Part shown: in pieces, positions 7,538-32,383 of the stretch | Layout of the letters: every line of letters begins with the position of its first letter | Position numbering within the stretch: position 1 is the stretch's first letter | Assembly: GCA_020350445.1 (NCBI GenBank) | Contig: CP070717.1 | Coordinates: forward strand, 4,314,682 to 4,352,891 | DNA: 38,210 nucleotides | Origin: Acidobacteriota bacterium | GTDB lineage: Bacteria > Acidobacteriota > UBA6911 > RPQK01 > JAPXNP01 | Direction: 5' to 3' | Program-made: the position numbers and the translations under genes | Notes under the pieces: generated by a model | Database searches by the model: none | What the model was told of the DNA's origin: nothing | What the model saw: only the letters and a program-made list of their open reading frames with translations

Positions 7538-8986
7538 CTATCCCCCTTGCTTTTCTTCTGCCTTGACCGGGTCTCCATCCTTCAGGGTCCGCAGCGTCTT
7601 GTAACTGCCGGTGACAATCGTCTGATCCTCCTCGAGACCTTCAACGACCTCGATGTTGGATTCACCGACGATACCGGTCTTCACTTCGGTGAAAACTGCT
7701 TTACCGTCTGTAAGGACAAAGACGCCCTCGAATTCTTTCTTCTCTAGTTTCTGATCGTTGGTGCTTTCCTTCTCTTCTTCCTCAGTGGCGGTCTTCTTCT
7801 TATCGTCATCACGAACGAGAGCACCATTCTCGTCCTGGCTGAACTCGCGCACAGTGAGTGCCTGAATCGGGATAGTTAAGACATCCGCTCGAGTCCGAGT
7901 CGTGATCTCAGCCGTGCAACTCAAACCGGGTCGAAGTGAGGCGGGAGGCTCGGCGAGCTGGATGACAACCTTGAAATCTTTTGCTTCCTGCGTCTGTCCA
8001 ACCGCCTGGATCGCTGAGTTTCCGATCTCCGTGACAATCCCATCCAGGGGGTTGTCGGGCAGAGCGTCCACTTTGACCACGGCCTTCTGTCCCATTTCAA
8101 GGTCGACGATATCGGTCTCATCGACCTCAACCTCTGCCTCTATGACAGAAAGATCCGCAATCACCATGAGCGTGGCTGCCGGGTTGTTGAGCGTGCCTGG
8201 GACCGCGCGCTCACCCACTTCGACGTTCAACTGGGTGATCACGCCGGCCAGGGGCGAGCGGATTGTCGTCTTTGAAAGGAGGTCCTGCGACCGCTCGAGG
8301 AAAGCCTTCTGCTGGGCGACACGGCTAATTGCACTCTCGTAGGAGGTCTGAGCTTGCTGGAGAACCACCTGTGACACCGCCAGCTGGGAATGGGCCTGCT
8401 CGAGCGAAACCTCGGCCTGTGCCAGGGCCGATTCTGCATTAATCACATCATTCTTGACCAGCTCATAGTCATCCTTCGAGATCAGGTTGTCTTCGTACAA
8501 TTCTTGCTTGCGCTCGAAGATCCTGTTCCGAAGTTCGTAGTTCTGCTGGGCCTTACGAAGCTCTACCTCCGCAACCCGGACCCCGGCCTCATCCCGCTGG
8601 ACATTCGTCTCCTGGACAGCGATGCCGGCCTTCTGGTTGCGGGCCTCTGACTCAGTGGAAGCGAGGACTGCTTCCTGTGCTGTAACCTCGGCCTTGGTTT
8701 GGATCGGGTCGATGTGAAGCAACAAGCTACCCTTCTCAACCCGGTCCCCTTCTTTGACCAGGAGGTCGGTGATTACACCCGAAATCTCGGCTTGGAGTTC
8801 AACATACTCCTTAGGCTTGATCTCGCCCGTAGCTGTCACGATCGAGATCAGCTCGGCCTTGCGTTCCACTTGCCCAGTTTCGACCCCTACCGTGTCTTTC
8901 CGCCGAGCATTGACGCTGAAGCCGATGATGGCCGCGAGTACAGCAAGAGCAATAGTAATAATGATAATCTTTTTCTTAGCAGCCAT
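7538..8986 (-). CDS. MacA/HlyD-family periplasmic adaptor protein
   Basis: This 482-aa protein has an N-terminal membrane anchor (residues 5-25, hydrophobic after MAAKKK), then a lipoyl/biotinyl half-domain (GEIKPKEYVELQAEISGVI, VKEGDRVEKGSLLLHIDP). A long coiled-coil hairpin rich in Glu, Gln and Ala spans roughly 85-235. The second lipoyl half (TIRSPLAGVITQLNVEVGE) and beta-barrel domains follow. This order defines tripartite-pump adaptors that bridge an inner-membrane transporter to an outer-membrane channel. A highly charged stretch rich in Asp, Glu and Lys (about 383-419) interrupts the C-terminal membrane-proximal domain. ATG 8986 has AAAGGTGG 9 nt upstream. It is operonic with the ATPase downstream and divergent from moeA. 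No outer-membrane TolC-like gene is nearby. Confidence 0.9.
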   Translation of the reverse strand: MAAKKKIIIITIALAVLAAIIGFSVNARRKDTVGVETGQVERKAELISIVTATGEIKPKEYVELQAEISGVITDLLVKEGDRVEKGSLLLHIDPIQTKAEVTAQEAVLASTESEARNQKAGIAVQETNVQRDEAGVRVAEVELRKAQQNYELRNRIFERKQELYEDNLISKDDYELVKNDVINAESALAQAEVSLEQAHSQLAVSQVVLQQAQTSYESAISRVAQQKAFLERSQDLLSKTTIRSPLAGVITQLNVEVGERAVPGTLNNPAATLMVIADLSVIEAEVEVDETDIVDLEMGQKAVVKVDALPDNPLDGIVTEIGNSAIQAVGQTQEAKDFKVVIQLAEPPASLRPGLSCTAEITTRTRADVLTIPIQALTVREFSQDENGALVRDDDKKKTATEEEEKESTNDQKLEKKEFEGVFVLTDGKAVFTEVKTGIVGESNIEVVEGLEEDQTIVTGSYKTLRTLKDGDPVKAEEKQGG

Positions 8987-12077: not shown

Positions 12078-12545
12078 ATGATTCGAATGAGTAAGTTTGC
12101 AGATTATGGTCTGGTCTTGATGACGCAGTTTCTTCGGGCTTCTTCGGCTGAAGAGAATCTGAGTGCCCGGGAGCTTGCCAGCCAGACCCGCCTTCCGCTT
12201 CCCATGGTGAGCAAGGTACTCAAGGCGTTGACACGAGAGGGTTTACTGGTTTCCCATCGGGGAGCCAGTGGCGGATACAGCCTGTCGCGGAGTCCGGCGA
12301 AGATCTCCGTTGCCGAGGTCCTCACAGCGGTCGAAGGGCCAATTGCCATGACCGAGTGTCTCGATTCAACCAGTGTCTGCAAACAGGAGTCCGTTTGTCC
12401 GGTTAGAACGAATTGGGAACGGATCAATTTTGCCGTTCAGGATGTATTGGATGCGATTTCCCTCGCCGATATGCTGGAACCGCTTCCCGATCATCTTGTG
12501 ACTCTGGGTGTAGGGGAGACTGAGACCCCTTCCCATCGGCAGTGA
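12078..12545 (+). CDS. Rrf2/IscR-family Fe-S-responsive regulator of the suf operon
   Basis: This 155-aa protein has the Rrf2 winged-helix N-terminus: MSKFADYGLVLM, LSARELASQTRLPLPMVSKV as the helix-turn-helix, and HRGASGGYSLSR as the wing. Three cysteines, C94, C101 and C107 (spacing x6, x5), lie where IscR-type proteins bind a [2Fe-2S] cluster. It matches the SUF-system regulator group that precedes sufB in many bacteria. It is the first gene of the sufBCDSUT operon and sits just downstream of a dyad operator that overlaps its own promoter. The expected role is repression of the operon when Fe-S cluster supply is sufficient. The start at 12078 follows family length; ATG 12087 is an alternative. 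Confidence 0.9.
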   Translation: MIRMSKFADYGLVLMTQFLRASSAEENLSARELASQTRLPLPMVSKVLKALTREGLLVSHRGASGGYSLSRSPAKISVAEVLTAVEGPIAMTECLDSTSVCKQESVCPVRTNWERINFAVQDVLDAISLADMLEPLPDHLVTLGVGETETPSHRQ

Positions 12546-12586
12546 TTGTATTCCGTGATTTTGGAGTTTAGGAAAGGTGAATTCAA

Positions 12587-14035
12587 ATGGCTAGCGAAAC
12601 TGAAGAGCTGCAAAGGTTAGCTGAAGAAGAATATAAGTACGGTTTCTATACCGATATCGAATCCGAGGCTCTTCCTCCGGGTCTGAATGAAGACGTGATC
12701 CGGTTGATTTCCGAGAAGAAATCGGAGCCTGGCTGGATGTTGGAGTGGAGACTGAAGGCATATCGCCAGTGGCTGAAGATGGAAGAGCCTACGTGGGCGT
12801 TCCTCAAGTACCCGAAGATCGACTACCAGGATATCGTCTATTACTCGGCGCCCAAGAAGCAGGCCGATGGTCCCAAGAGTCTTGATGAGGTTGATCCCGA
12901 GCTTCTGGAAACCTACCAGAAACTGGGTATTCCGCTGGAAGAGCAGGAGATCCTGGCCGGTGTCGCCGTTGACGCGGTTTTCGACAGCGTGTCGGTGGCG
13001 ACGACATTCAGGGAGAAGCTCGCCGAACAGGGCATCATCTTCTGTTCGATGAGTGAGGCTCTCAAGGAGCACCCTGATCTGGTTCGGCAGTACCTCGGTT
13101 CCGTTGTTCCTCACTCGGACAACTTCTTCGCCGCTTTGAACTCGGCGGTCTTCAGTGACGGTTCCTTCTGCTACATCCCGAAAGGGGTTCGTTGTCCGAT
13201 GGAGTTATCCACCTATTTTCGCATCAACGCGGCGAAGACCGGTCAGTTCGAACGGACCCTGATCGTTGCCGACGAGGGGAGCTACGTCAGCTACCTCGAA
13301 GGGTGTACTGCACCGATGAGGGATGAAAACCAGCTTCACGCTGCGGTGGTGGAGCTCGTTGCCCTGAAGGACGCCACGATCAAGTATTCCACGATCCAGA
13401 ACTGGTATCCCGGGGATGATCAAGGCCGGGGCGGGATCTACAACTTTGTCACCAAGCGGGGAAAGTGTCTCGGTGAGAACTCACGAATCTCCTGGACTCA
13501 GGTCGAGACCGGATCTGCAATTACCTGGAAGTATCCCTCCTGTCTGCTGATTGGGGACAATTCAGTCGGCGAGTTCTACTCGGTGGCGTTGACGAAAAAG
13601 CGACAGCAGGCTGATACCGGCACCAAGATGATTCACCTTGGCAAGAACACCAGCAGCAACATCGTTTCCAAGGGTATTTCGGCTGGTGAAGGCCAGAACA
13701 CCTACCGCGGACTCGTGAAGATAGGGAAGAAAGCGGTCAATGCCCGCAACTATACCCAGTGTGATTCGATGTTGATCGGTGACAAGTGTGGAGCACACAC
13801 CTTCCCCTACATCGAAGTAGGTAACAGTACGGCTCACATGGAACACGAGGCATCAACGTCGAAGATTGGCGAAGACCAGATCTTTTACTGCCAGCAGCGG
13901 GGTCTGTCGGCTGAAGATGCCGTTTCGATGATCGTGAATGGCTTCTGCAAGGAAGTCTTCAAAGAACTACCAATGGAATTTGCGGTTGAAGCGCAGAAGC
14001 TGCTGAGCGTCAACTTGGAAGGCAGTGTCGGCTAG
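12587..14035 (+). CDS. sufB: Fe-S cluster assembly scaffold SufB
   Basis: SufB is the scaffold subunit of the SufBC2D complex, on which new Fe-S clusters are built. The 482-aa product has the full SufB architecture: an N-terminal helical region ([31 protein letters not shown]), [30 protein letters not shown], then the right-handed beta-helix core, and the C-terminal stretch [18 protein letters not shown] with [19 protein letters not shown]. The conserved cysteine in GDKCGAHT and the downstream glutamate and cysteine residues are in place. A good ribosome-binding site (AGGAAAGGTG) lies 7 nt before ATG 12587. Third-position usage is typical of its neighbours. Confidence 0.97.
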
Positions 14036-14061
14036 AGCAATTGGATGAATGGAGAAGCAAA

Positions 14062-14832
14062 ATGCTTGAGATAAAGAACTTACATGTTAGAGCAGAGGGT
14101 AAGGAGATTCTGAAGGGAATCGACCTGAAAGTGGCGCCCGGCGAGGTGCATTCGATCATGGGTCCGAACGGCTCAGGAAAGAGTACGTTGGCAAACGTGT
14201 TGGCCGGCCGGGAGGATTTTGAAGTAACGCAGGGTGAGATCATTTACAGGGATCAGGACCTGCTCGATATGGATCCTGAAGAACGAGCACGGGAAGGTGT
14301 CTTCCTGGCTTTTCAGTATCCCGTTGAGATCCCCGGTGTCAGCAACACCTACTTTCTCCGCGCCGCACTCAATGCGGTCCGCAAACATCGCGGTGAGAAA
14401 GAAGTGGATGCCATGGAGTTCCTGAAGCTCGTGCGCGAGAAGGCAAAGCTACTCAAGATGGATCAGAGCCTTTTGAGCCGTCCCGTGAACGAAGGTTTCT
14501 CGGGTGGGGAGAAGAAGCGCAATGAGATCTTCCATATGGCAGTTCTCGAGCCGGCCCTGGGTATCCTGGATGAAACCGACTCCGGTCTGGATATCGACGC
14601 GCTGAAGATAGTCGCTGATGGTGTCAACGCGCTCAGGAATAAGGATCGTTCCTTTGTCGTTGTCACTCACTACCAGCGTCTTCTGGACTACATCGTTCCG
14701 GACTTCGTGCACGTGCTCTACGAAGGGAAGATCGTCAAGTCAGGCGACAAAGACCTTGCACGTGAACTCGAGAAGACTGGTTATTCCTGGCTTCAGAACG
14801 GCAAACCCGAAATCCAGCCGGTGGGCCAGTAA
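14062..14832 (+). CDS. sufC: Fe-S cluster assembly ATPase SufC
   Basis: SufC is the ABC-type ATPase that drives conformational change in SufBC2D. The 256-aa protein has Walker A GPNGSGKSTLANVLAG, the SufC-specific LAFQYPVEIPGVSN Q-loop region, signature FSGGEKKRNEIFHMAVL, Walker B LGILDETDSGLDIDAL and the H-loop VVTHYQRLL. I chose ATG 14062, where LEIKNLHVRAEG starts the fold and GGAGAAGC sits upstream. A longer frame from TTG 14041 would add seven residues without support. It lies 26 nt after sufB and is followed 15 nt later by sufD. Confidence 0.97.
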   Translation: MLEIKNLHVRAEGKEILKGIDLKVAPGEVHSIMGPNGSGKSTLANVLAGREDFEVTQGEIIYRDQDLLDMDPEERAREGVFLAFQYPVEIPGVSNTYFLRAALNAVRKHRGEKEVDAMEFLKLVREKAKLLKMDQSLLSRPVNEGFSGGEKKRNEIFHMAVLEPALGILDETDSGLDIDALKIVADGVNALRNKDRSFVVVTHYQRLLDYIVPDFVHVLYEGKIVKSGDKDLARELEKTGYSWLQNGKPEIQPVGQ

Positions 14833-14847
14833 GGGAGAGGCGCACCG

Positions 14848-16185
14848 ATGACCCGAGCGGTAATGGAAAAGAAAGACGATCTGTTTGAAGCGATGGTTGA
14901 ATTCGGCCGGAGTGCGGAACTCTCTGGGCCCACCTGGTTGAAGGAACGTAGGGCCGCGGCCCTCAAGCGTTTTGAGGACCTGGGCCTGCCGACAAAACGA
15001 GATGAATCGTGGCGGTTCACTGATACGAAGGTCCTGAAGAGGACGCCGTTTGTACCGGCCGTCGCCGACGCTTCTCCCGGTGTGGACCTTTCGGACTTGT
15101 CCTTTTCGACCTTTGGTGAGGACCGGCTGGTCTTCCTCAACGGTCATTTTGCGGAAGAGCTCTCATCGAAGAACCTCCCGAAGGGCATCAGAGTCCGTAG
15201 CCTGGCGACTGCCTTGCAGCAGGATGCCGATGGGCTTGAGCCTATCCTTGGGCGGTATGCGACTTCTGAGCATGAGGCCTTCAATTCCCTTAATCTGGCC
15301 CTCTTTCAGGATGGAGCGGTAATTGAGGTTGATCCCGGTTGTGTGGTCGAGTCGCCGATTCATCTGCTGTTTGTGAATCGTGCGGCGGATGGCCCCTTGC
15401 TCATCAACACTCGAGTACTGGCAGTTTGCGGGGACAATTCGCAGGTTAGCCTGGTGGAATCACACCTCGGCCTTCCTGGTCATCCCTATCTCAGCAATGG
15501 AGTGACGGAAGTTTTGGCTGGGGATAATGCTGTAGTGGATCACTACAAAGTCCAGCAGGAGAACTCCGATGCGTTCCATATCGCGACGTTCCAGTCTCAT
15601 CAGGGCCGAAACGCAAATGTCCGAACCATGACGGTTACCCTTTCCGGGGCAGTCGTTCGCAACGAGACGAATGCCGTACTCGGCGGAGAAGGGGGTTGGG
15701 CTGAGCTGAATGGTCTCTTCCTGGTTGGGGAGGATCATCACGTCGATAACTTCACGCGTATCGAGCATGCAAAGCCGCACTGTGACAGCCGGGAAGTCTA
15801 TCGGGGAATTCTCTCTGAGCAGGGTTCGGGCGTCTTTCGCGGCAGAATCGTAGTCGCAAAGGATGCTCAGAAGACCGATTCGAAGCAGACGAACAACAAC
15901 CTCCTGCTCTCGGATGAAGCGTTGATCAACACTAAGCCACAGCTAGAGATCTATGCCGATGATGTCAAGTGCACCCATGGTGCCACGATCGGACAGCTCG
16001 AAAAGGAGGCGATCTTCTATCTGCGCTCGCGCGGTATCTCGGAAAGCGCTGCGCGCAGTATGCTGATTTACGCATTTGCGACTGACGTTGTGGGTCGTAT
16101 CAAGGTTGAATCACTGCGAGAGGAACTCGACCGATACCTGTTTAGCTGGCTGCCCAAGGGCGAAGTTGTGCGGGAGGCATTCTAA
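14848..16185 (+). CDS. sufD: Fe-S cluster assembly protein SufD
   Basis: This 445-aa product is SufD, the SufB paralogue of the SufBC2D scaffold, thought to help with iron entry. It shows the N-terminal SufD features PTWLKERRAAALKRFEDLGL and KRDESWRFTDTKVL, the beta-helix core with NNNLLLSDEALINTKPQLEI and YADDVKCTHGATIGQLEKEA (conserved Cys and His), and the C-terminal RSRGISESAARSMLIYAFA. ATG 14848 is preceded by GGGAGAGG at a good distance. An internal ATG at codon 6 (MEKKDD) is an alternative start. It is the fourth gene of the suf operon. Confidence 0.96.
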   Translation: MTRAVMEKKDDLFEAMVEFGRSAELSGPTWLKERRAAALKRFEDLGLPTKRDESWRFTDTKVLKRTPFVPAVADASPGVDLSDLSFSTFGEDRLVFLNGHFAEELSSKNLPKGIRVRSLATALQQDADGLEPILGRYATSEHEAFNSLNLALFQDGAVIEVDPGCVVESPIHLLFVNRAADGPLLINTRVLAVCGDNSQVSLVESHLGLPGHPYLSNGVTEVLAGDNAVVDHYKVQQENSDAFHIATFQSHQGRNANVRTMTVTLSGAVVRNETNAVLGGEGGWAELNGLFLVGEDHHVDNFTRIEHAKPHCDSREVYRGILSEQGSGVFRGRIVVAKDAQKTDSKQTNNNLLLSDEALINTKPQLEIYADDVKCTHGATIGQLEKEAIFYLRSRGISESAARSMLIYAFATDVVGRIKVESLREELDRYLFSWLPKGEVVREAF

Positions 16186-16223
16186 CCCCGAGAGGGGTGG
16201 GATCTCCGAAGACGGGGAAGAGC

Positions 16224-17498
16224 ATGGATAGCATCGAACGAGCTGAAGCGACTGTGAGTGATCGACTGACCGGGCCTTGTCGGATTGATGTCGATCGGCT
16301 CAGAGGGGATTTTCCTATTCTGAGTTCGACGGTTTACGGCAAGCCCCTCGTCTATCTGGACAACGCGGCGACAACACAGAAACCAGCGGTTGTGATCGAG
16401 ACCCTGCGCAATTACTACGAGCAGGTCAACTCGAACATCCACCGAGGTGTCCACCACCTGAGCCAGGTGGCAACAGATGAGTATGAGAAATCTCGTCGAA
16501 CCGTACAGCGATTTCTGAATGCTCGCAAGGTTTCAGAAATCGTGTTTGTCCGCGGGACGACGGAAGGCGTCAATCTGATCGCTCAAACCTTTGGCCGGAG
16601 CCGTCTGGCTGAAGGAGATGAAGTGGTGATCTCGGCGATGGAGCATCATTCCAATATCGTCCCCTGGCAAATGGTCTGCGAGCAGATGGGAGCCAGGCTG
16701 AAGGTCATCCCGATGAACGATCGGGGCGAGTTGCTCATCGAGAAATACGCCGGGCTACTGGGACCGCGGACCAAGCTGGTTTCGTTTGTTCATGTTTCGA
16801 ACGCTCTCGGAACGGTGAATCCTGCCCGAGAGATGATTCAGTTAGCGCATGAGCGGGGAATCCCGGTTGTATTAGACGGAGCCCAGTCGTTGCCGCATTT
16901 GAAGGTCGATGTGCAGGAGCTCGATGTCGATTTCTTTGTCTTCTCGGGGCACAAAGCTTTTGGCCCAACCGGGATCGGAGCTGTCTACGGCAAGTTGAAA
17001 CACCTCGAAGCCATGCCGCCTTACCAGGGTGGCGGAGACATGATTAGCTCGGTATCGTTTGAGAAGACGACCTACAACGAAGTCCCCCACAAGTTCGAAG
17101 CGGGCACTCCGAACATTGCCGGCGCGATCGGTTTGGGAGCTTCTCTGGAGTACCTCGCGGGGCTTGATCTCGATGTGGTTGCCGGTTACGAAGAGGGGCT
17201 TGTCGAGTATGCGCATGAAGCACTTCTCGAAGTTCCGGGCCTCAGGCTGATCGGAACTGCAGAGAAGAAGGCCGGCGTTGTCTCGTTTGTGCTGGAGAGT
17301 GTGCATCCGCACGACATCGGCACAATTCTCGATCGAGAAGGAGTCGCCATCCGAACCGGCCACCATTGCGCACAGCCGGTGATGGATTTCTATGGGGTTC
17401 CGGCAACAGCGCGGGCCTCCTTCGCGTTTTACAATAAGCGCGAGGAAATTGATATCCTAGTGCAAGGCCTCGGGAAGGCTATAGAGGTATTTCGCTGA
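16224..17498 (+). CDS. sufS: Cysteine desulfurase SufS
   Basis: SufS is a group II PLP-dependent cysteine desulfurase that delivers persulfide sulfur to SufU and the scaffold. With start ATG 16224 (GGGGAAG 3 nt before it) the protein is 424 aa. A GTG at 16197 would add nine residues and is less convincing. Family motifs are VYLDNAATTQKP, NIHRGVHHLS, FVRGTTEGVNLIA, EHHSNIVPWQ, DGAQSLPHLKVDV, SGHKAFGPTG with the PLP lysine K244, and RTGHHCAQPVMDF with the catalytic C382. It is immediately followed by sufU (1 bp between stop and start), the usual partner pairing. Confidence 0.96.
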   Translation: MDSIERAEATVSDRLTGPCRIDVDRLRGDFPILSSTVYGKPLVYLDNAATTQKPAVVIETLRNYYEQVNSNIHRGVHHLSQVATDEYEKSRRTVQRFLNARKVSEIVFVRGTTEGVNLIAQTFGRSRLAEGDEVVISAMEHHSNIVPWQMVCEQMGARLKVIPMNDRGELLIEKYAGLLGPRTKLVSFVHVSNALGTVNPAREMIQLAHERGIPVVLDGAQSLPHLKVDVQELDVDFFVFSGHKAFGPTGIGAVYGKLKHLEAMPPYQGGGDMISSVSFEKTTYNEVPHKFEAGTPNIAGAIGLGASLEYLAGLDLDVVAGYEEGLVEYAHEALLEVPGLRLIGTAEKKAGVVSFVLESVHPHDIGTILDREGVAIRTGHHCAQPVMDFYGVPATARASFAFYNKREEIDILVQGLGKAIEVFR

Positions 17499-17499
17499 C

Positions 17500-17952
17500 A
17501 TGAGCTTCGTGAACGAACTTTACCAGGAAGTGATTCTTGATCACAATCGACAGCCCCGCAACTACGGCGATCTCCCGGACGCAACTGAGAAAGCGGAAGG
17601 CTACAATCCGCTTTGCGGCGACCGGGTGACGGTCTATATCAAACGGGATGGTGATGTCATCCAGGACGTGAAGTTCGTCGGTGCCGGCTGTGCGATTTCC
17701 ACAGCATCTGCATCGCTGATGACCGAAACGCTCAAAGGGAAGAACCTCGCCCAGGCGCGGGTCTTGTTTGAGAAGTTTCGTGACATGGTCATGGGTAATC
17801 TCGATATGGAAATGGATGATGAGGACCTCGAAAAACTGGTTGTCTTCCATCGCCTGAGTGACTACCCCGTCCGAGTCAAATGCGCCACGCTCGTTTGGCA
17901 TGCGCTCCTCTCAGCCCTGGAGAAGGAAGAAAAGGCCGTTTCGACGGAATAG
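17500..17952 (+). CDS. sufU: SufU-type zinc sulfurtransferase
   Basis: SufU accepts persulfide from SufS; in Firmicutes it binds zinc and acts as a sulfur relay rather than a scaffold. The 150-aa product begins LYQEVILDHNRQPRNYG. It carries the ligand set C39 and D41 (NPLCGDRV), C64 (GAGCAISTAS) and C128 (PVRVKCATLVWHAL), matching SufU. It also has the extra 18-20 residue insertion between the second and third cysteine regions (GKNLAQARVLFEKFRDMVMG and following) that separates SufU from IscU. It lies directly after sufS and before sufT. Confidence 0.95.
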   Translation: MSFVNELYQEVILDHNRQPRNYGDLPDATEKAEGYNPLCGDRVTVYIKRDGDVIQDVKFVGAGCAISTASASLMTETLKGKNLAQARVLFEKFRDMVMGNLDMEMDDEDLEKLVVFHRLSDYPVRVKCATLVWHALLSALEKEEKAVSTE

Positions 17953-27298: not shown

Positions 27299-28456
27299 AT
27301 GTTTAGAAAACTGCTTGTTTGGTCTTTACCGTTGTTGTTGCCGATTGTGACTTCTTGCGGCGGATCTTCCGAAAGTGCGATCACCAAGATCCAGAGGGAT
27401 AAGTTCGCATACTTCGGGACGGTTCCGTTTGAACCTCCGCTGATGTACCAGGCGGGGGCCGAGCTGGTCGGTCCGGATGCTGCCTTGGGGCAGGCGATTG
27501 TGGAGCGGATCGATGCAGCCCGGGAATCGGCGACAGGAAGTCACGTCAAGTTGAACTGGATCAACCGAACCTATTCGGGCCTGATACCGGCAATTGAAAG
27601 CGGAGAAATCCAGTTGGCGCTCGGTGTCCTGGCAATTACGGACGAACGGAAACAACAGGTTCAGTTTTCCGATCCGTATTACACCTCGGAGTTGGTGTTG
27701 ATCATCAACCCGGTGCACAAGGATCTGAAACCGGATGGGCTGAGCGGTGGGAAGATCGGTGTTCGCGAGGGAACGGGAGTGGAGGCCTTTGTCGCTTCAA
27801 AGTACCCATCGAGCACGCTGGTCAAGTTTGGAACTCTCGATGATGCGGTCCTCGCGTTGCGGCGCAGCGAAGTCGACGCCGTGATCGATGACAAACTCAT
27901 GGCCGCCTATTCGCTGGCAACCACACCAGGGGCTTCTCACATGGAAATCTATCCTGAGACGCTGGGCACGCTGGAAGTGGCAGTTGCCATGCGGAAGGGT
28001 GATGCTCAACTCCTGAAGCTGGTCAACGAGATCATCGCCGAGTTCAACAACGAAGACCGGTTCGCAAGCCTCAGAACTGAACACTTGGGAACGAGGCTCG
28101 ACGATGTTGCAGTCCGCTATTCCACCAGGCAGGAAGAGTTGAAGAAGGCTGCAGAGCCGCGCAGTGTCAGCATTCGGGTCTCGAAAGACAACAACTTTGA
28201 CTTCGACATCTACAAGATGGCGAACCTACAGTTTGTTCTGCAGGAGCGGAGTTCGGGCAACTCGTACCGCAGTTCCCGCATCGACTTCCAGGGCCGGACG
28301 GGTATGGCCAGTGTGAGTATTCCTCCGGGATCCTATACGCTCTCACTGCCAAGTTTCAATTTCTCGACGTCGGTTGAAATCAACGCTTCTGATCCCACCC
28401 GAGTCCCCATCAATATTCGAGTGACGAGTGGCGGAGTTGTAGTCCGCAAGGGCTAA
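27299..28456 (+). CDS. Solute-binding lipoprotein (family 3) with C-terminal beta-sandwich
   Basis: This 385-aa lipoprotein has a lipobox at LPIVTSC with the lipidated cysteine C20. Residues about 30-260 form a family 3 periplasmic solute-binding fold (SGLIPAIESGEIQLALGVLA, KQQVQFSDPYYTSELVLI, GKIGVREGTGVEAF, LRRSEVDAVIDDKLMAAYSL), the class that binds amino acids or acts as a sensor input. Residues about 283-385 are an added beta-rich domain (VSIRVSKDNNFDFDIYKM, SIPPGSYTLSLPSFNFSTSV) resembling carboxypeptidase-regulatory-like or PEGA-type sandwiches. No ABC permease or ATPase is adjacent, so it may be a binding or sensory protein. A rho-independent terminator follows. Confidence 0.82.
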   Translation: MFRKLLVWSLPLLLPIVTSCGGSSESAITKIQRDKFAYFGTVPFEPPLMYQAGAELVGPDAALGQAIVERIDAARESATGSHVKLNWINRTYSGLIPAIESGEIQLALGVLAITDERKQQVQFSDPYYTSELVLIINPVHKDLKPDGLSGGKIGVREGTGVEAFVASKYPSSTLVKFGTLDDAVLALRRSEVDAVIDDKLMAAYSLATTPGASHMEIYPETLGTLEVAVAMRKGDAQLLKLVNEIIAEFNNEDRFASLRTEHLGTRLDDVAVRYSTRQEELKKAAEPRSVSIRVSKDNNFDFDIYKMANLQFVLQERSSGNSYRSSRIDFQGRTGMASVSIPPGSYTLSLPSFNFSTSVEINASDPTRVPINIRVTSGGVVVRKG

Positions 28457-28487
28457 CGAGACTTAGCCACCAACCCGGGTCTTTTCG

Positions 28488-28518
28488 GGCGTCCGGTATC
28501 GAACCGGACGCCTTTTTT
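28488..28518 (+). terminator. Rho-independent terminator
   Basis: GGCGTCCGGT (28488-28497), loop ATCGA, ACCGGACGCC (28503-28512), then TTTTTT. A perfect 10-bp stem with a T-run. It ends the lipoprotein transcript and insulates the iron-regulated operon that follows. Confidence 0.95.
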
Positions 28519-28567: not shown

Positions 28568-28596
28568 TTGACAACAAGGCCGTAAGCGAGCATACT
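28568..28596 (+). promoter_or_regulatory. Promoter of the porin-flavin operon
   Basis: A perfect -35, TTGACA (28568-28573), 17 nt, then CATACT (28591-28596), 4/6 to TATAAT. Transcription would start near 28603, directly upstream of the Fur box. The predicted 5' leader is about 227 nt. Confidence 0.75.
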
Positions 28597-28608
28597 TACA
28601 TTGCTTAT

Positions 28609-28629
28609 TGAAAATGATTTTCATTATCA
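28609..28629. promoter_or_regulatory. Fur box downstream of the porin-flavin promoter
   Basis: TGAAAATGATTTTCA (28609-28623) is a perfect 7-1-7 palindrome, one base per arm from the Fur consensus TGATAATnATTATCA. A second, overlapping 7-1-7 unit (28615-28629, TGATTTTCATTATCA) is offset by 6 bp, as in classical Fur boxes. Against the 19-bp consensus, 28610-28628 matches at 16 positions. It sits at about +7 to +27 relative to the predicted start, so Fe-Fur would block transcription. Other Fur-family regulators (Zur, Mur) remain possible. Confidence 0.85.
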
Positions 28630-28829
28630 ATAACAAGATTCAGGGGTCGTTCTTGGGTCTGGGGTTTCAGAGGGCGAGAATGAGGGGTGGGGATGCGCCA
28701 GTTGCAGCCAGCGCATCCCGGTAGCGTTTCGATTGCAGTCGAGTAAAACGCAGGTTTTAGTATAGGACCCCCCATTGGGGCAGTCAAACGCCCTCCTGTT
28801 AATGTCTTACACGCATTGAGGAGGTTGGA
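28630..28829 (+). promoter_or_regulatory. Long structured 5' leader of the porin operon
   Basis: No gene is seen here. A perfect 9-bp stem pairs GGGATGCGC (28690-28698) with GCGCATCCC (28711-28719) around a 12-nt loop. CCCC/GGGG around ATT occurs near 28768-28780. The leader ends with a strong ribosome-binding site (GGAGG) before ATG 28830. The hairpins have no T-run and do not match riboswitch classes I know, including FMN. Confidence 0.5.
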
Positions 28830-30218
28830 ATGAGAAGAGTTCTTGCAGCTGTGACGATGGCCTTGTTCCTACAGGTTGCGGCCATACATGCCGCTGATGA
28901 GCAAACTATAGATAGCCGTTTGAGCGAACTCGAAAAGAGGCTCAAGGCGTTGGAAGAGCGCGAACAACAGAGAGCTGTTGAGGCTGAAGAGACAGAGAAA
29001 TCAGAGATGACGGTCGAACTCGAAGAGTTACGGCGACAGGTAGGGATTCTGGCGGAAGAAGTCGAGAAGATGCGCAGTGGTGAAGAAGGAGTCGAGATTA
29101 CTCAGGAAAGGGCCAGCTCCCTTGGATTGGGCCCTTCAGCTGCGAGTGTCTATCGGAAGCAGAGTGGTGTGTCGATCGCGGGTTATGGTGAAATGCTCTA
29201 TTCCAACTTCGCCGATCAGAATCAGTCGGGAACCCCTGTTGACAAAATCTCGAACCTGGACTTTCTGCGGGCGATCTTTTATGCCGGCTATCGCTTCAAT
29301 GACCGGTTCCTGTTCAACTCTGAAATCGAGGTTGAACACGCCACGACCGATAAATCGGGGAGTGCATCCGTAGAGTTCGCCTATGTCGAGTACTTGATCA
29401 ACAAGAACCTGACGGCTCGCGGCGGAATGCTCCTGGTACCTATGGGATTTGTCAATGAGTTTCACGAACCGAACGTCTTTCTGGGGGCATTACGGCCTCG
29501 GACAGAACAGGTCATTATGCCAACCACCTGGAGAGAAAACGGCTTCGGCGTAACCGGTTCGTACGGGCCTCTCAACTTCCGGACCTATCTTGTCAACGGA
29601 CTCGATGCCGGTGGTTTCAGTGCGGGAGGCTTTCGAGGCGGCCGCCAGAAAGGCTCGAAAGCCAAGGCGGGTGATATGGCATTTGTCGCCAGGGGGGATC
29701 TCAACCCGACACCGGGTATCGTCATTGGTGGATCGATCTATCATGGCGGCTCAGATCACGGCCAGTTTAAGACAGACATCGGAAAGCTCGATTTAGGGAC
29801 GACGATTTGGGAAGTCCACGGCGAAGCGAAGTTCCGCGGGTGGGACCTCAGGGGTCTGCTCGCTGGCAGCCATCTTCAGAACGCGGGCCTCTTCAACGAA
29901 TTGAAGGGTTTGTCTGGGAGCGATGGGATTGCTGAATCGATGCGTGGTGGCTATCTCCAACTTGGCTACAATCTCCTCTCCGGTCATCACGAATCGATGG
30001 GTTTGACTCCGTACTACCGTTTTGAGTCGGTCGATACCCAGCACAAGATGCCGGTTGGGTTCTTCTCCGATCCAGCCAACAACCAGGACTTTCATACCCT
30101 GGGATTCGAATTCAAACCGATCTACAACATTGTGATCAAAACAGACTATCAGTGGCTGCAGAATGGTGCGAAGACTGGCCTGAATCAGTTCAATATCGGA
30201 CTGGGATACAGTTTCTAA
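28830..30218 (+). CDS. Outer-membrane porin with N-terminal coiled coil
   Basis: This 462-aa protein has a signal peptide (residues 4-21, LAAVTMALFLQVAAIHAA), then a charged coiled coil (about 25-85, heptads of Leu and Glu such as SRLSELEKRLKALEER). A 16- to 18-strand-type beta barrel starts at VSIAGYGEMLYSNFADQ and ends with the outer-membrane terminal motif GLGYSF. It resembles the DcaP/phosphate-selective porin class, in which a periplasmic coiled coil precedes the barrel. It is the first gene after a Fur box, suggesting that it admits iron complexes or partners of the electron system encoded downstream. ATG 28830 has GGAGG 6-8 nt upstream. The substrate is unknown. Confidence 0.85.
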   Translation: MRRVLAAVTMALFLQVAAIHAADEQTIDSRLSELEKRLKALEEREQQRAVEAEETEKSEMTVELEELRRQVGILAEEVEKMRSGEEGVEITQERASSLGLGPSAASVYRKQSGVSIAGYGEMLYSNFADQNQSGTPVDKISNLDFLRAIFYAGYRFNDRFLFNSEIEVEHATTDKSGSASVEFAYVEYLINKNLTARGGMLLVPMGFVNEFHEPNVFLGALRPRTEQVIMPTTWRENGFGVTGSYGPLNFRTYLVNGLDAGGFSAGGFRGGRQKGSKAKAGDMAFVARGDLNPTPGIVIGGSIYHGGSDHGQFKTDIGKLDLGTTIWEVHGEAKFRGWDLRGLLAGSHLQNAGLFNELKGLSGSDGIAESMRGGYLQLGYNLLSGHHESMGLTPYYRFESVDTQHKMPVGFFSDPANNQDFHTLGFEFKPIYNIVIKTDYQWLQNGAKTGLNQFNIGLGYSF

Positions 30219-30247
30219 GGTTGATGAGGGAATAAGAGGTCGACTAC

Positions 30248-30817
30248 ATGATTAGACAAATCTGGAAATCAGGTTTCCTTATCTTGCTCGTGAGTTGGCC
30301 TCTTTCTTCAGTCACCTCGGGAGTCCAGGGGGCGACCTATCCTTCCAGAGAAGAAGTGCTGCAGGAAGTCTATGGTTCGGCGGTGATAGCGGCCGAACGC
30401 GTCTTTCTGACAAGTGCTGAACAGTCAACGGCTGCGGAAAAGGCCGGAGTCGATATTCCCTCGCCGCTGATCGCGCGGTACGTCCTCAAGAAAGACCAGG
30501 CGGTCGTCGGCCGGGCCTATGTGGATACCCACATCGTTCGTACCAAGAAGCAGAGTGTTCTCATCTGCCTCGCCGCAGACGGAGCGATCAAGCGAATCGA
30601 AGTCACCGCCTTCCTGGAGCCTCCGGAGTATCTCGTCCCCGACGTCTGGTACCAGCAGTACGAAGGGCGGATGTTGTCTGAGGACTTGAGACTTCAGCGT
30701 GACATTCGTTCCGTGGCCGGAGCGACCCTCACCTCGATGACGACCGCGGCTGCGGTGCGGAGGGTTCTGGCGATTGACGAGGTGCTCGAGAAGAAATCGA
30801 CGGGAGGATCCCGATGA
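30248..30817 (+). CDS. Periplasmic FMN-binding domain protein with flavinylation motif
   Basis: This 189-aa protein has a signal peptide (residues 7-28). It carries an FMN-binding domain of the RnfG/NqrC type, with the covalent attachment motif RSVAGATLTS at 154-163, in which T160 would receive FMN through a phosphoester bond made by ApbE. The serine usually three residues before the Gly is alanine here. DGAIKRIEVT and EPPEYLVPDVWYQQYEG are typical domain segments. ApbE is encoded two genes downstream in the same operon. It is expected to be a one- or two-electron carrier in the periplasm. ATG 30248 has AGAGGT about 8 nt upstream; the stop overlaps the next ATG (ATGA). Confidence 0.88.
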   Translation: MIRQIWKSGFLILLVSWPLSSVTSGVQGATYPSREEVLQEVYGSAVIAAERVFLTSAEQSTAAEKAGVDIPSPLIARYVLKKDQAVVGRAYVDTHIVRTKKQSVLICLAADGAIKRIEVTAFLEPPEYLVPDVWYQQYEGRMLSEDLRLQRDIRSVAGATLTSMTTAAAVRRVLAIDEVLEKKSTGGSR

Positions 30818-31284
30818 CTACTTGTGAGAGACGGATCTTCAACGCACTGGCTTTCATCGTTTCAATTACAGGATTTGCCTACCTGGTGATGAAGTACGCG
30901 ATGGAGACGGATGATCCTTTTGCACTGGTGAATCACCCATTCCAGCCCTACGCTCTGGACCTTCATCTCCTGGCCGCACCTTTCCTTCTCTTTGTTTCGG
31001 GGATGCTGGTACGAGGGCATATCAGACCGAAACTGAAGCAGGCCAACAGAGGGAATCGTAAGAGCGGTCTGATTACTCTCTGGATGATAGCTGCCATGTC
31101 GGTTTCGGGTTACCTGCTTCAAGTCGTAACCAACGAAACGCTGTACCAGGTCAGCCTTGCTCTCCACCTGGTTTCGGGCACCCTTTTTGCTGCCTTCTTC
31201 CTGGGCCACGTGATCCGGAGCATTCGACTTCGCCGGACAGGGAAGGCGGGACTGAGAGAGGTGGAGAAGAAACTTGCCGCCTGA
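30814..31284 (+). CDS. Four-helix membrane protein, putative di-haem b electron conduit
   Basis: This 156-aa protein has four hydrophobic helices, about residues 9-27, 48-67, 86-105 and 113-133. The charge pattern predicts both ends and the 70-85 loop (RPKLKQANRGNRK) in the cytoplasm. Histidines lie at the ends of helix 2 (H51, H69) and helix 4 (H118, H132). With this topology H51 and H118 face the periplasm and H69 and H132 the cytoplasm, which would give two bis-histidine b-haems stacked across the membrane, as in cytochrome b561/DUF4405-like proteins. Haem binding is inference; I know of no named family that fits exactly. It is coupled by ATGA to the FMN protein and overlaps apbE. Confidence 0.72.
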   Translation: MTTCERRIFNALAFIVSITGFAYLVMKYAMETDDPFALVNHPFQPYALDLHLLAAPFLLFVSGMLVRGHIRPKLKQANRGNRKSGLITLWMIAAMSVSGYLLQVVTNETLYQVSLALHLVSGTLFAAFFLGHVIRSIRLRRTGKAGLREVEKKLAA

Positions 31285-32383
31285 CATCTCCGGTTTGCGG
31301 GCACCCGCCTCGCTCCGGAAGGTTCTGCGTTCTGGGCTGCTCCCTGCACTCTTCTTGTTCTTCTCTATTCACTGTGCAGCGCTGGGTCGGCCGGTGGAGA
31401 TTCAGGAAGAGTCGCATCGAGAGGAACTCGACGCAGCGGAAGTCACGGTTCGTGAAGTCTTCCTGATGGGAACCGTTGCGACGATTCAAGTGCGCGGCGC
31501 CGAACCATCCTCCCGCCGAAAACTGGCCGCCGACCTCATCACCTCGCTCGAGCGGACCGAGGACGAGTTGAGTACATGGAGAAGGTCGAGTGAGCTCAGC
31601 CGTTTGAACCAAGCGCAGATCGGAGCACAATTCGCTCTCTCGGACTCAACCTGCGAGATGCTCAAAAGCGTTTTCGATCTCAGCCAGCGAACGGGAGGTG
31701 CGTTTGATCCCGCCATTGGCAGGTTGATTGAGGTATGGGATCTCCAAGGGCAGGGTCGCATACCGGGCGAGACTGAGCTCAAGCCTCTCCTGGATCGAGG
31801 TGGTTTGAAGGGTTTTGACTTTCGCCGAGCATCCTGTGAGGTGGTACGCCGCGTTGATACAACCATTGATGCTGGAGCTTTTGGAAAGGGTGAGGCTCTC
31901 GATCGATTGGATGGAATAGGCTCCCGGTTTGAGAATTCGTCCTGGCAGGTCAATCTTGGCGGTCAAGTCCGCGTTTCGGTGGCACCGGGGCATGCGCCCT
32001 GGATAGTGGAGCTTGCTTCACCGGAAGACCGTGAATCCACGGTAGCGGAGATTGTGCTCAGCAAGGGATCGATCGCGACAAGTGGGAGCTTGCTTCGGGA
32101 CCGGTGGGTTGAGGGCAGGCGAATCGGGCACCTGCTCGATCCACGAACTGGGATACCGGCGAAGTACTTTGGGTCGGTCGCGGTCTGGCATCGGTCGGCT
32201 CTGCAGGCGGATGCCCTATCGACAGCGCTCTTCGTCATGGGGCCGAAGGACGGACTCGAATGGGCAGAACGGGAAGCAGTGGCAGCCTGCTATCTCTTCA
32301 TGGAGGACGGAGTCCTAAAGGTCTTATCGTCGAGTGAGTTTCAGAAGATGTTTGTTAAAGGGAGAGGCTTCGGGGAGCGCTGA
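31274..32383 (+). CDS. apbE: FAD:protein FMN transferase ApbE
   Basis: ApbE transfers FMN from FAD onto a threonine of FMN-binding proteins outside the cytoplasm. The 369-aa protein has an N-terminal hydrophobic export signal (about 20-32, LLPALFLFFSIHCAALG). A cysteine is present there, but the residue before it is His, so a lipoprotein is doubtful. Catalytic and cofactor segments follow: LSTWRRSSELSRLN, GGAFDPAIGRLIEVWDL, TTIDAGAFGKGEALDRL, NLGGQVRVS, GSIATSGSLLRDR, IGHLLDPRTG and DALSTALFVMG. The TTG start at 31274, inside the end of the upstream gene, has GGAG 7 nt before it. It is the last gene of the Fur-box operon; its stop is 1 nt from the convergent porB stop. Confidence 0.94.
   Translation: MPPDISGLRAPASLRKVLRSGLLPALFLFFSIHCAALGRPVEIQEESHREELDAAEVTVREVFLMGTVATIQVRGAEPSSRRKLAADLITSLERTEDELSTWRRSSELSRLNQAQIGAQFALSDSTCEMLKSVFDLSQRTGGAFDPAIGRLIEVWDLQGQGRIPGETELKPLLDRGGLKGFDFRRASCEVVRRVDTTIDAGAFGKGEALDRLDGIGSRFENSSWQVNLGGQVRVSVAPGHAPWIVELASPEDRESTVAEIVLSKGSIATSGSLLRDRWVEGRRIGHLLDPRTGIPAKYFGSVAVWHRSALQADALSTALFVMGPKDGLEWAEREAVAACYLFMEDGVLKVLSSSEFQKMFVKGRGFGER

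Follow-up and report, generated by a model that had tools for sequence, protein, structure and literature searches.

An iron-linked gene cassette for a porin, an FMN_bind protein, a putative membrane cytochrome and ApbE in Acidobacteriota, a candidate module for reductive iron assimilation

A 38,210-nucleotide stretch of an Acidobacteriota genome (contig CP070717.1, positions 4,314,682 to 4,352,891; hereafter the window) contains a cassette of four open reading frames (ORFs) that run in one direction behind a single promoter and code for an outer-membrane porin, an exported protein of the FMN_bind family (FMN, flavin mononucleotide), a four-helix membrane protein, and the flavin transferase ApbE. 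We think it probable that this cassette is an iron-starvation-induced module for reductive iron assimilation that feeds Fe(II) uptake. Its regulation by Fur and its iron context are well supported by sequence conservation and gene linkage. An earlier, sequence-only reading of the window had proposed an iron-repressed pathway of electron export that reduces Fe(III). The iron control in that proposal stands, on the strength of conserved Fur boxes and iron-gene neighbors, and what it called electron export we recast as periplasmic reductive iron assimilation. All of the ORFs it listed are present, with the FMN_bind and membrane-protein genes overlapping at an ATGA and apbE, which has a TTG start, overlapping the membrane-protein gene.

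The Fur box of the cassette (TTGAAAATGATTTTCAT, 28608-28624) lies directly downstream of the -10 element of the promoter. It is a 7-1-7 unit, TGAAAATGATTTTCA, overlapped at a shift of 6 bp by a second unit, TGATTTTCATTATCA, which takes the site to 28629; the TTGACA promoter and the two-unit box behind it were thus both located where they had been described (Table 1). Positions 28608-28624 agree exactly with the FUR box published for delta-proteobacteria, WTGAAAATNATTTTCAW, which is a computational reconstruction (PMC545781). Searches for WTGAAAATNATTTTCAW with up to two mismatches gave one match in 2 of 100 shuffled sequences, searches for GATAATGATAATCATTATC with up to three mismatches gave none in 100, and the window's Fur box is beyond chance. 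A scan for promoters alone did no better than shuffles (2 found; shuffle mean 2.0). In a scan of the window's own genome, the window site was the only exact match to TGAAAATNATTTTCA. The sole site with one mismatch (C1:2750088-2750102; locus L040, near 8089) precedes a porin gene of the OprB family by about 30 bp, which recalls the Fur-controlled OprB porin adjoining feoAB in Geobacter. Two-mismatch sites at other places in the genome are apparently chance occurrences, and the two that were inspected (L214 and L217) are near secY/adk-like and lipid-kinase/prephenate-dehydratase-like ORFs. Within the window, a Fur-like match at 8957-8975 was rejected because it falls inside the start of a 482-residue coding sequence (7538-8986).

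The sequence-only reading had staked its Fur box on being shared by orthologous operons, and we found that boxes are kept over several classes and phyla. We scored 7-1-7 Fur palindromes and counted as a site any that matched at 13 or more of 14 positions within -450 to +160 of the first cassette gene. Among 48 loci from the phylum, 20 have such a site, compared to 2 sites in 504 kb of sequence elsewhere. A wider set of 99 non-redundant loci was searched with a wider pattern that allows A at one more position, giving sites at 44 loci versus 14 other matches in 1.05 Mb. Because this pattern was chosen after AT-rich sites had been seen, the relevant controls are the off-target count and a set of 200 permuted half-sites, which hit 0.25 loci on average, with a median of 0 and a maximum of 15. 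Sites are also present at Planctomycetota and Gemmatimonadales loci, so the link to Fur extends beyond Acidobacteriota.

The cassette itself recurs widely. A single-protein query gave no match against genome contigs. With an 18-sequence alignment as the query we found 74 named loci, including some in Planctomycetota, Gemmatimonadota, Myxococcota and epsilon relatives. Relatives of the FMN protein are found in 87 of 297 genomes of the phylum, and the cassette is present at about 100 non-redundant loci, mainly in Acidobacteriota and also in Planctomycetota, Gemmatimonadota and others. The gene order is either porin-FMN-cytb-apbE or apbE-porin-FMN-cytb, with some losses (cytb being the gene for the four-helix protein), and a plasmid of Ideonella dechloratans has the order porin-FMN-apbE-cytb.

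Genes for iron regulation and iron transport recur beside these cassettes. Neighbor genes were clustered with the cassette genes fixed first, and among 48 same-strand upstream neighbors tallied there were six genes of the Fur family, three of DtxR type, three for FeoA and one for FeoB. Five directly upstream Fur genes were confirmed singly (L069, L075, L081, L082, L087). In one locus from Thermoanaerobaculia (L169) the genes Fur-FeoB-ApbE-porin-FMN-cytb share a strand in that order, and a Fur-type box lies near the start of the Fur domain; in Anaeromyxobacter oryzisoli and A. oryzae (L163, L168) the order is FeoB-DtxR/FeoA-porin-FMN. TonB-receptor genes lie downstream of the cassette in L052, L107 and L137. 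The claim that the operon lacks a TonB receptor and other standard uptake genes therefore holds at the window locus and fails in relatives, where feoB and TonB-receptor genes adjoin it. No fumarate-reductase-type partner was seen among the neighbor families listed or individually scanned. Taken as gene linkage, the fur, feoB, DtxR/FeoA and TonB-receptor neighbors support, independently of the boxes, a role in iron metabolism.

Another regulator of the Fur family, responsive to manganese or zinc, might instead read the box, in which case the operon would serve another metal or another porin cargo. Fur-family boxes are alike, relatives have one to three Fur-family genes each, and the DtxR-type neighbors in Anaeromyxobacter could be manganese-responsive. 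We nevertheless regard this as quite improbable, given that the window site matches the computationally derived delta-proteobacterial FUR box exactly, that relatives encode the ferrous-iron transporter FeoB in a single same-strand run with the cassette, and that a redox chain suits the chemistry of Fe(III)/Fe(II) but not that of Zn.

A Pfam search of the window's own genome for the FUR family gave no match, and we rejected the conclusion that the genome has no Fur gene, as an artefact of scaffold gaps. The genome (5.13 Mb; its nearest named relatives are metagenome-assembled genomes of Acidobacteriota) is a single contig that is in fact a scaffold with many runs of exactly 100 N (for example L181 893-992 and L210 2060-2159, and others in L042, L043 and L044), so absences of genes from it are unreliable. 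Close relatives (L197, L201) carry a fusion of Fur to a rubrerythrin (ferritin-like) domain. The C-terminal half of this fusion is present in the window's genome at C1:1264992-1265552 (L210), with 65% identity, and on the 5' side its open frame takes in the end of the FUR domain before it runs into a gap of 100 N. The gene has therefore been broken by the assembly, and its absence is not implied. The fusion, of about 315-340 amino acids, is the main Fur protein of the clade, and a literature search found no description of it. The feoB gene of this genome is at C1:2347627, and a gap of the 100-N type also lies just upstream of its feoAB.

The four-helix membrane protein is a predicted di-heme b-type cytochrome. 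It is modeled as four helices with high confidence (pLDDT, predicted local distance difference test, 96). Four residues, His51, His69, His118 and His132, never vary among homologs (50/50 and 52/52); their spacing is that of two pairs, on helices 2 and 4. These four histidines and the model together support a protein that would bind two hemes, as the sequence-only reading had supposed. The nearest folds are di-heme b cytochromes (HyaC, b561, and the cytochrome b of the bc1 complex), although the matches are not significant (E-values of 0.14 and up). Searches against the Pfam families NapH-like, MsrQ, PepSY, DsbD, NqrB/RnfD and DUF4405 gave no match; the only family approached was cytochrome b561/Ni-hydrogenase cytochrome b (PF01292), at 26.1 bits versus a cutoff of 30.1.

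The flavin components are a periplasmic FMN_bind protein with a GAT motif and ApbE, and both were found as described. ApbE is unambiguous, at 197 bits for PF02424 (cutoff 25.6), and its adjacency to the FMN_bind gene is retained across the phylum. When the FMN protein was searched as a profile, it matched RnfG (9eri_G) with an E-value of 7.7e-8. The motif threonine is Thr160 in VAGATLT, a predicted flavinylation site on which FMN would be covalently held, and the G-A-[T/S] core is kept in 52 of 53 FMN-protein sequences. Divergent FMN_bind relatives in which SRAT or TRAT replaces GAT (L098 3354-3920 and L099 5818-6405) occur outside the cassette in the same order, and are possibly non-flavinylated paralogs.

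The first gene of the cassette codes for a porin, as had been claimed. It matched no porin family in Pfam, including PF07396 (Phosphate-selective porin O/P), so the assignment as a barrel rests on a structure model. AlphaFold (pLDDT 91) gives a coiled coil at the N terminus, helical up to residue 82 with the signal region counted in, followed by a 16-strand barrel, which matches solved porins in the PDB with E-values of about 1e-12; OprP (2o4v) has an E-value of 6.8e-12, and general porins match equally well. A Parabacteroides homolog barely passes PF07396 (21.1 versus a cutoff of 20.9). Invariant residues in the alignment include five Glu and two His, which differ from the arginine ladder of OprP and might point to a preference for cations. 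Matches of 51 residues to HasA sequences (E-values of 0.004 and up) were rejected as chance, given the barrel model.

Porins combined with redox proteins resemble porin-cytochrome conduits, and the modeled coiled coil could extend into the periplasm, as would suit a dissimilatory system in which respiratory electrons leave the cell by way of the porin, through it or along it. Such extracellular electron transfer seems very improbable to us: iron should not switch off respiratory iron reduction, yet the box is of Fur type and conserved; the cassette has no multiheme cytochrome; and the neighboring genes are those of iron assimilation.

For reductive iron assimilation, which we favor, the steps might be as follows. 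In iron-replete cells, Fe-loaded Fur on the box would block the promoter, and when iron is low the four cassette proteins would be made. ApbE would attach FMN to Thr160 of the periplasmic carrier. The cytochrome, with two b hemes held by its two His pairs, would be reduced by a membrane donor (quinol is the likeliest) and would in turn reduce the covalent flavin. The flavin protein would then reduce periplasmic Fe(III) or Fe(III)-chelates, turning insoluble iron into a soluble form fit for import. The resulting Fe(II) would be imported by FeoB, while the porin may pass iron complexes across the outer membrane. A route independent of TonB is possible but doubtful, in which the Glu/His-rich porin, with its coiled coil reaching into the periplasm, admits Fe(III) complexes, and the flavin carrier, with electrons from an unnamed family of four-helix di-heme cytochromes, reduces their iron in or at the channel to supply FeoB.

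Electron direction cannot be read from sequence, and the flow could also be inward, with periplasmic Fe(II) oxidized during uptake of the FTR1/EfeB type and flavin and hemes carrying the electrons to quinone. The Parabacteroides porin homolog is consistent with this, since it sits 5' of imelysin-family and di-heme oxidoreductase genes, a neighborhood linked to Efe-type uptake. We judge it extremely improbable, because FeoB, the partner that relatives encode beside the cassette, takes up Fe(II) with no oxidation step, and because the covalent-flavin carriers of comparable clusters have been proposed to be reductases (PMC8238504).

Several observations weigh against reductive assimilation. The feoB gene of the window's genome is not beside the cassette, and there is none in the window; the same strand run is seen only in relatives (L163, L168, L169). 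Strong boxes within -450 to +160 are lacking at 55 of the 99 loci, several of which carry one farther upstream. Some clades have no cytb or apbE beside the FMN gene. The third membrane protein of Anaeromyxobacter and the epsilon relatives fails to match the cassette cytochrome. We tested these proteins as homologs of it and could not confirm them: the gene after the FMN protein (L163 6456-6929, L173 6453-6923) codes for another small membrane protein, one that lacks the four-His pattern, and the membrane partner seems to have been swapped in these organisms. The FMN protein barely passes PF04205 (22.1 bits versus a cutoff of 22). Position -6 of its motif is never Asp in the 53 sequences (37 Arg, 13 His, 3 Pro), and none of them has the full flavinylation motif D-x-x-[S/T]-G-A-[S/T] that is normal for ApbE substrates. 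A recent review calls this Asp strictly conserved but also states that replacing it by Ala has little effect (PMC12052999), so flavinylation may still occur without it.

Lastly, the neighbors are not always genes of iron uptake. Di-heme peroxidase genes (CCP_MauG) adjoin the cassette instead in L045 and L173, and a gene annotated as cytochrome c peroxidase lies 5' of the Ideonella porin. These suggest an iron-sparing carrier, in which, when iron is short, the flavin protein would stand in for c-type cytochromes and deliver electrons to periplasmic enzymes (di-heme cytochrome c peroxidases or MauG, for example) and not to iron. Fur-controlled exchanges of flavin for iron are known, for example flavodoxin (PMC545781), and the idea has been raised in discussion of flavinylation (PMC8238504). 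This explanation is unlikely in our view: the membrane partner itself seems to hold two hemes, so little iron would be saved, the peroxidases are di-heme proteins too, and the feoB, dtxR-feoA and TonB-receptor neighbors together with a porin in the operon suggest transport.

The features of the locus are listed in Table 1. Upstream of the cassette (27299-28456) is a gene for a solute-binding-like protein of family 3 that is extended at its C terminus. In close relatives its kin adjoin the cassette (L048, L049, L106, L110); the porin gene is absent there, and the solute-binding-like gene is directly 5' of the FMN gene. A second iron-related unit in the window (12078-17952) has a regulator of Rrf2 type followed by what by eye looks like a suf-type Fe-S assembly cluster.

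Table 1. Features of the cassette locus, in window coordinates.
Feature	Position	Strand	Basis
Intrinsic terminator, setting the cassette apart from the upstream solute-binding-protein gene	28487..28513	+	11-pair stem then TTTTT
Sigma-70-like promoter, TTGACA-17-CATACT	28568..28596	+	consensus match only, 10/12
Fur box, 7-1-7 unit and overlapping second unit	28608..28629	+	pattern scans; conserved upstream of orthologs
Outer-membrane porin gene	28830..30218	+	AlphaFold model, PDB porin matches, alignment; no Pfam family
Exported FMN_bind (RnfG-like) protein gene	30248..30817	+	PF04205, RnfG profile match, motif counts
Four-helix membrane protein, predicted di-heme b cytochrome	30814..31284	+	His conservation, model pLDDT 96
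ApbE, FAD (flavin adenine dinucleotide):protein FMN transferase, exported	31274..32383	+	PF02424, 197 bits

Fur-repressed flavinylation clusters with a heme membrane protein are already known (PMC8238504, PMC3751524). The PepSY-like/DUF2271/DUF4198/ApbE clusters (PMC8238504), such as Caulobacter CC_3059-3063 (PMC3751524), share with the cassette ApbE and, as predicted for the cassette, have a covalent-flavin periplasmic carrier, a heme membrane protein, Fur repression, and a proposed role in Fe(III) reduction for uptake. The cassette differs in having FMN_bind rather than DUF2271, a four-helix di-heme-like protein without a PepSY match, and an additional OprP-like porin, and was found here mainly in Acidobacteriota. 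The DUF4405/FezC cytochromes of flavinylation clusters and ferrosomes (PMC11334425) are likewise small membrane proteins with conserved His that are apbE-adjacent or iron-linked, but they have six helices and their own Pfam family, whereas the cassette protein has four and reaches no Pfam cutoff, the nearest being PF01292. By sequence, then, the putative membrane cytochrome is outside the PepSY and DUF4405/FezC classes. The periplasmic siderophore reductases FoxB and HiuB (PMC13001220) are Fur-regulated, with two heme sites in a membrane protein and Fe(II) thought to reach FeoAB, much as is predicted for the cassette. Their proposed action, however, is direct reduction of the ferri-siderophore in partnership with a TonB receptor, whereas the cassette would interpose a flavin carrier and a porin.

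Porins under a Fur box with a proposed role in iron entry have been reported in Geobacter and Desulfuromonas (PMC545781), namely psp and an OprB-like porin, the latter beside feoAB. No flavin carrier, cytochrome or ApbE was reported with them, and the cassette porin matches neither of their Pfam families. The covalent-FMN subunits RnfG and NqrC share the FMN_bind fold and, for RnfG, the profile match, but the cassette protein is exported, soluble and outside Rnf/Nqr operons, and has Arg, His or Pro in place of the motif Asp. P19/FTR1 clusters place an FMN_bind protein in an iron-uptake setting (PMC8238504), whereas the neighbors scanned here yielded neither P19 nor FTR1 and the transporter in relatives is FeoB. 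We found no paper describing the cassette in the open-access literature. The word porin is absent from the main texts of two surveys of flavinylation, and the main text of the 2021 survey names neither FeoB nor Acidobacteriota. The four-gene cassette thus appears not to have been described previously as a unit.

How periplasmic Fe(III) reduction supplies Fe(II) transporters of the FeoB type is unexplained in most bacteria, and the cassette is a compact, testable candidate for this step from a phylum that has been little studied; in several genomes both regulator and transporter adjoin it. Cultured carriers of related clusters exist in Anaeromyxobacter oryzae and Ideonella dechloratans, the latter having the cassette without fur/feo. 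For ApbE-linked electron transfer, the cassette would add a family of predicted membrane cytochromes and a variant flavinylation motif.

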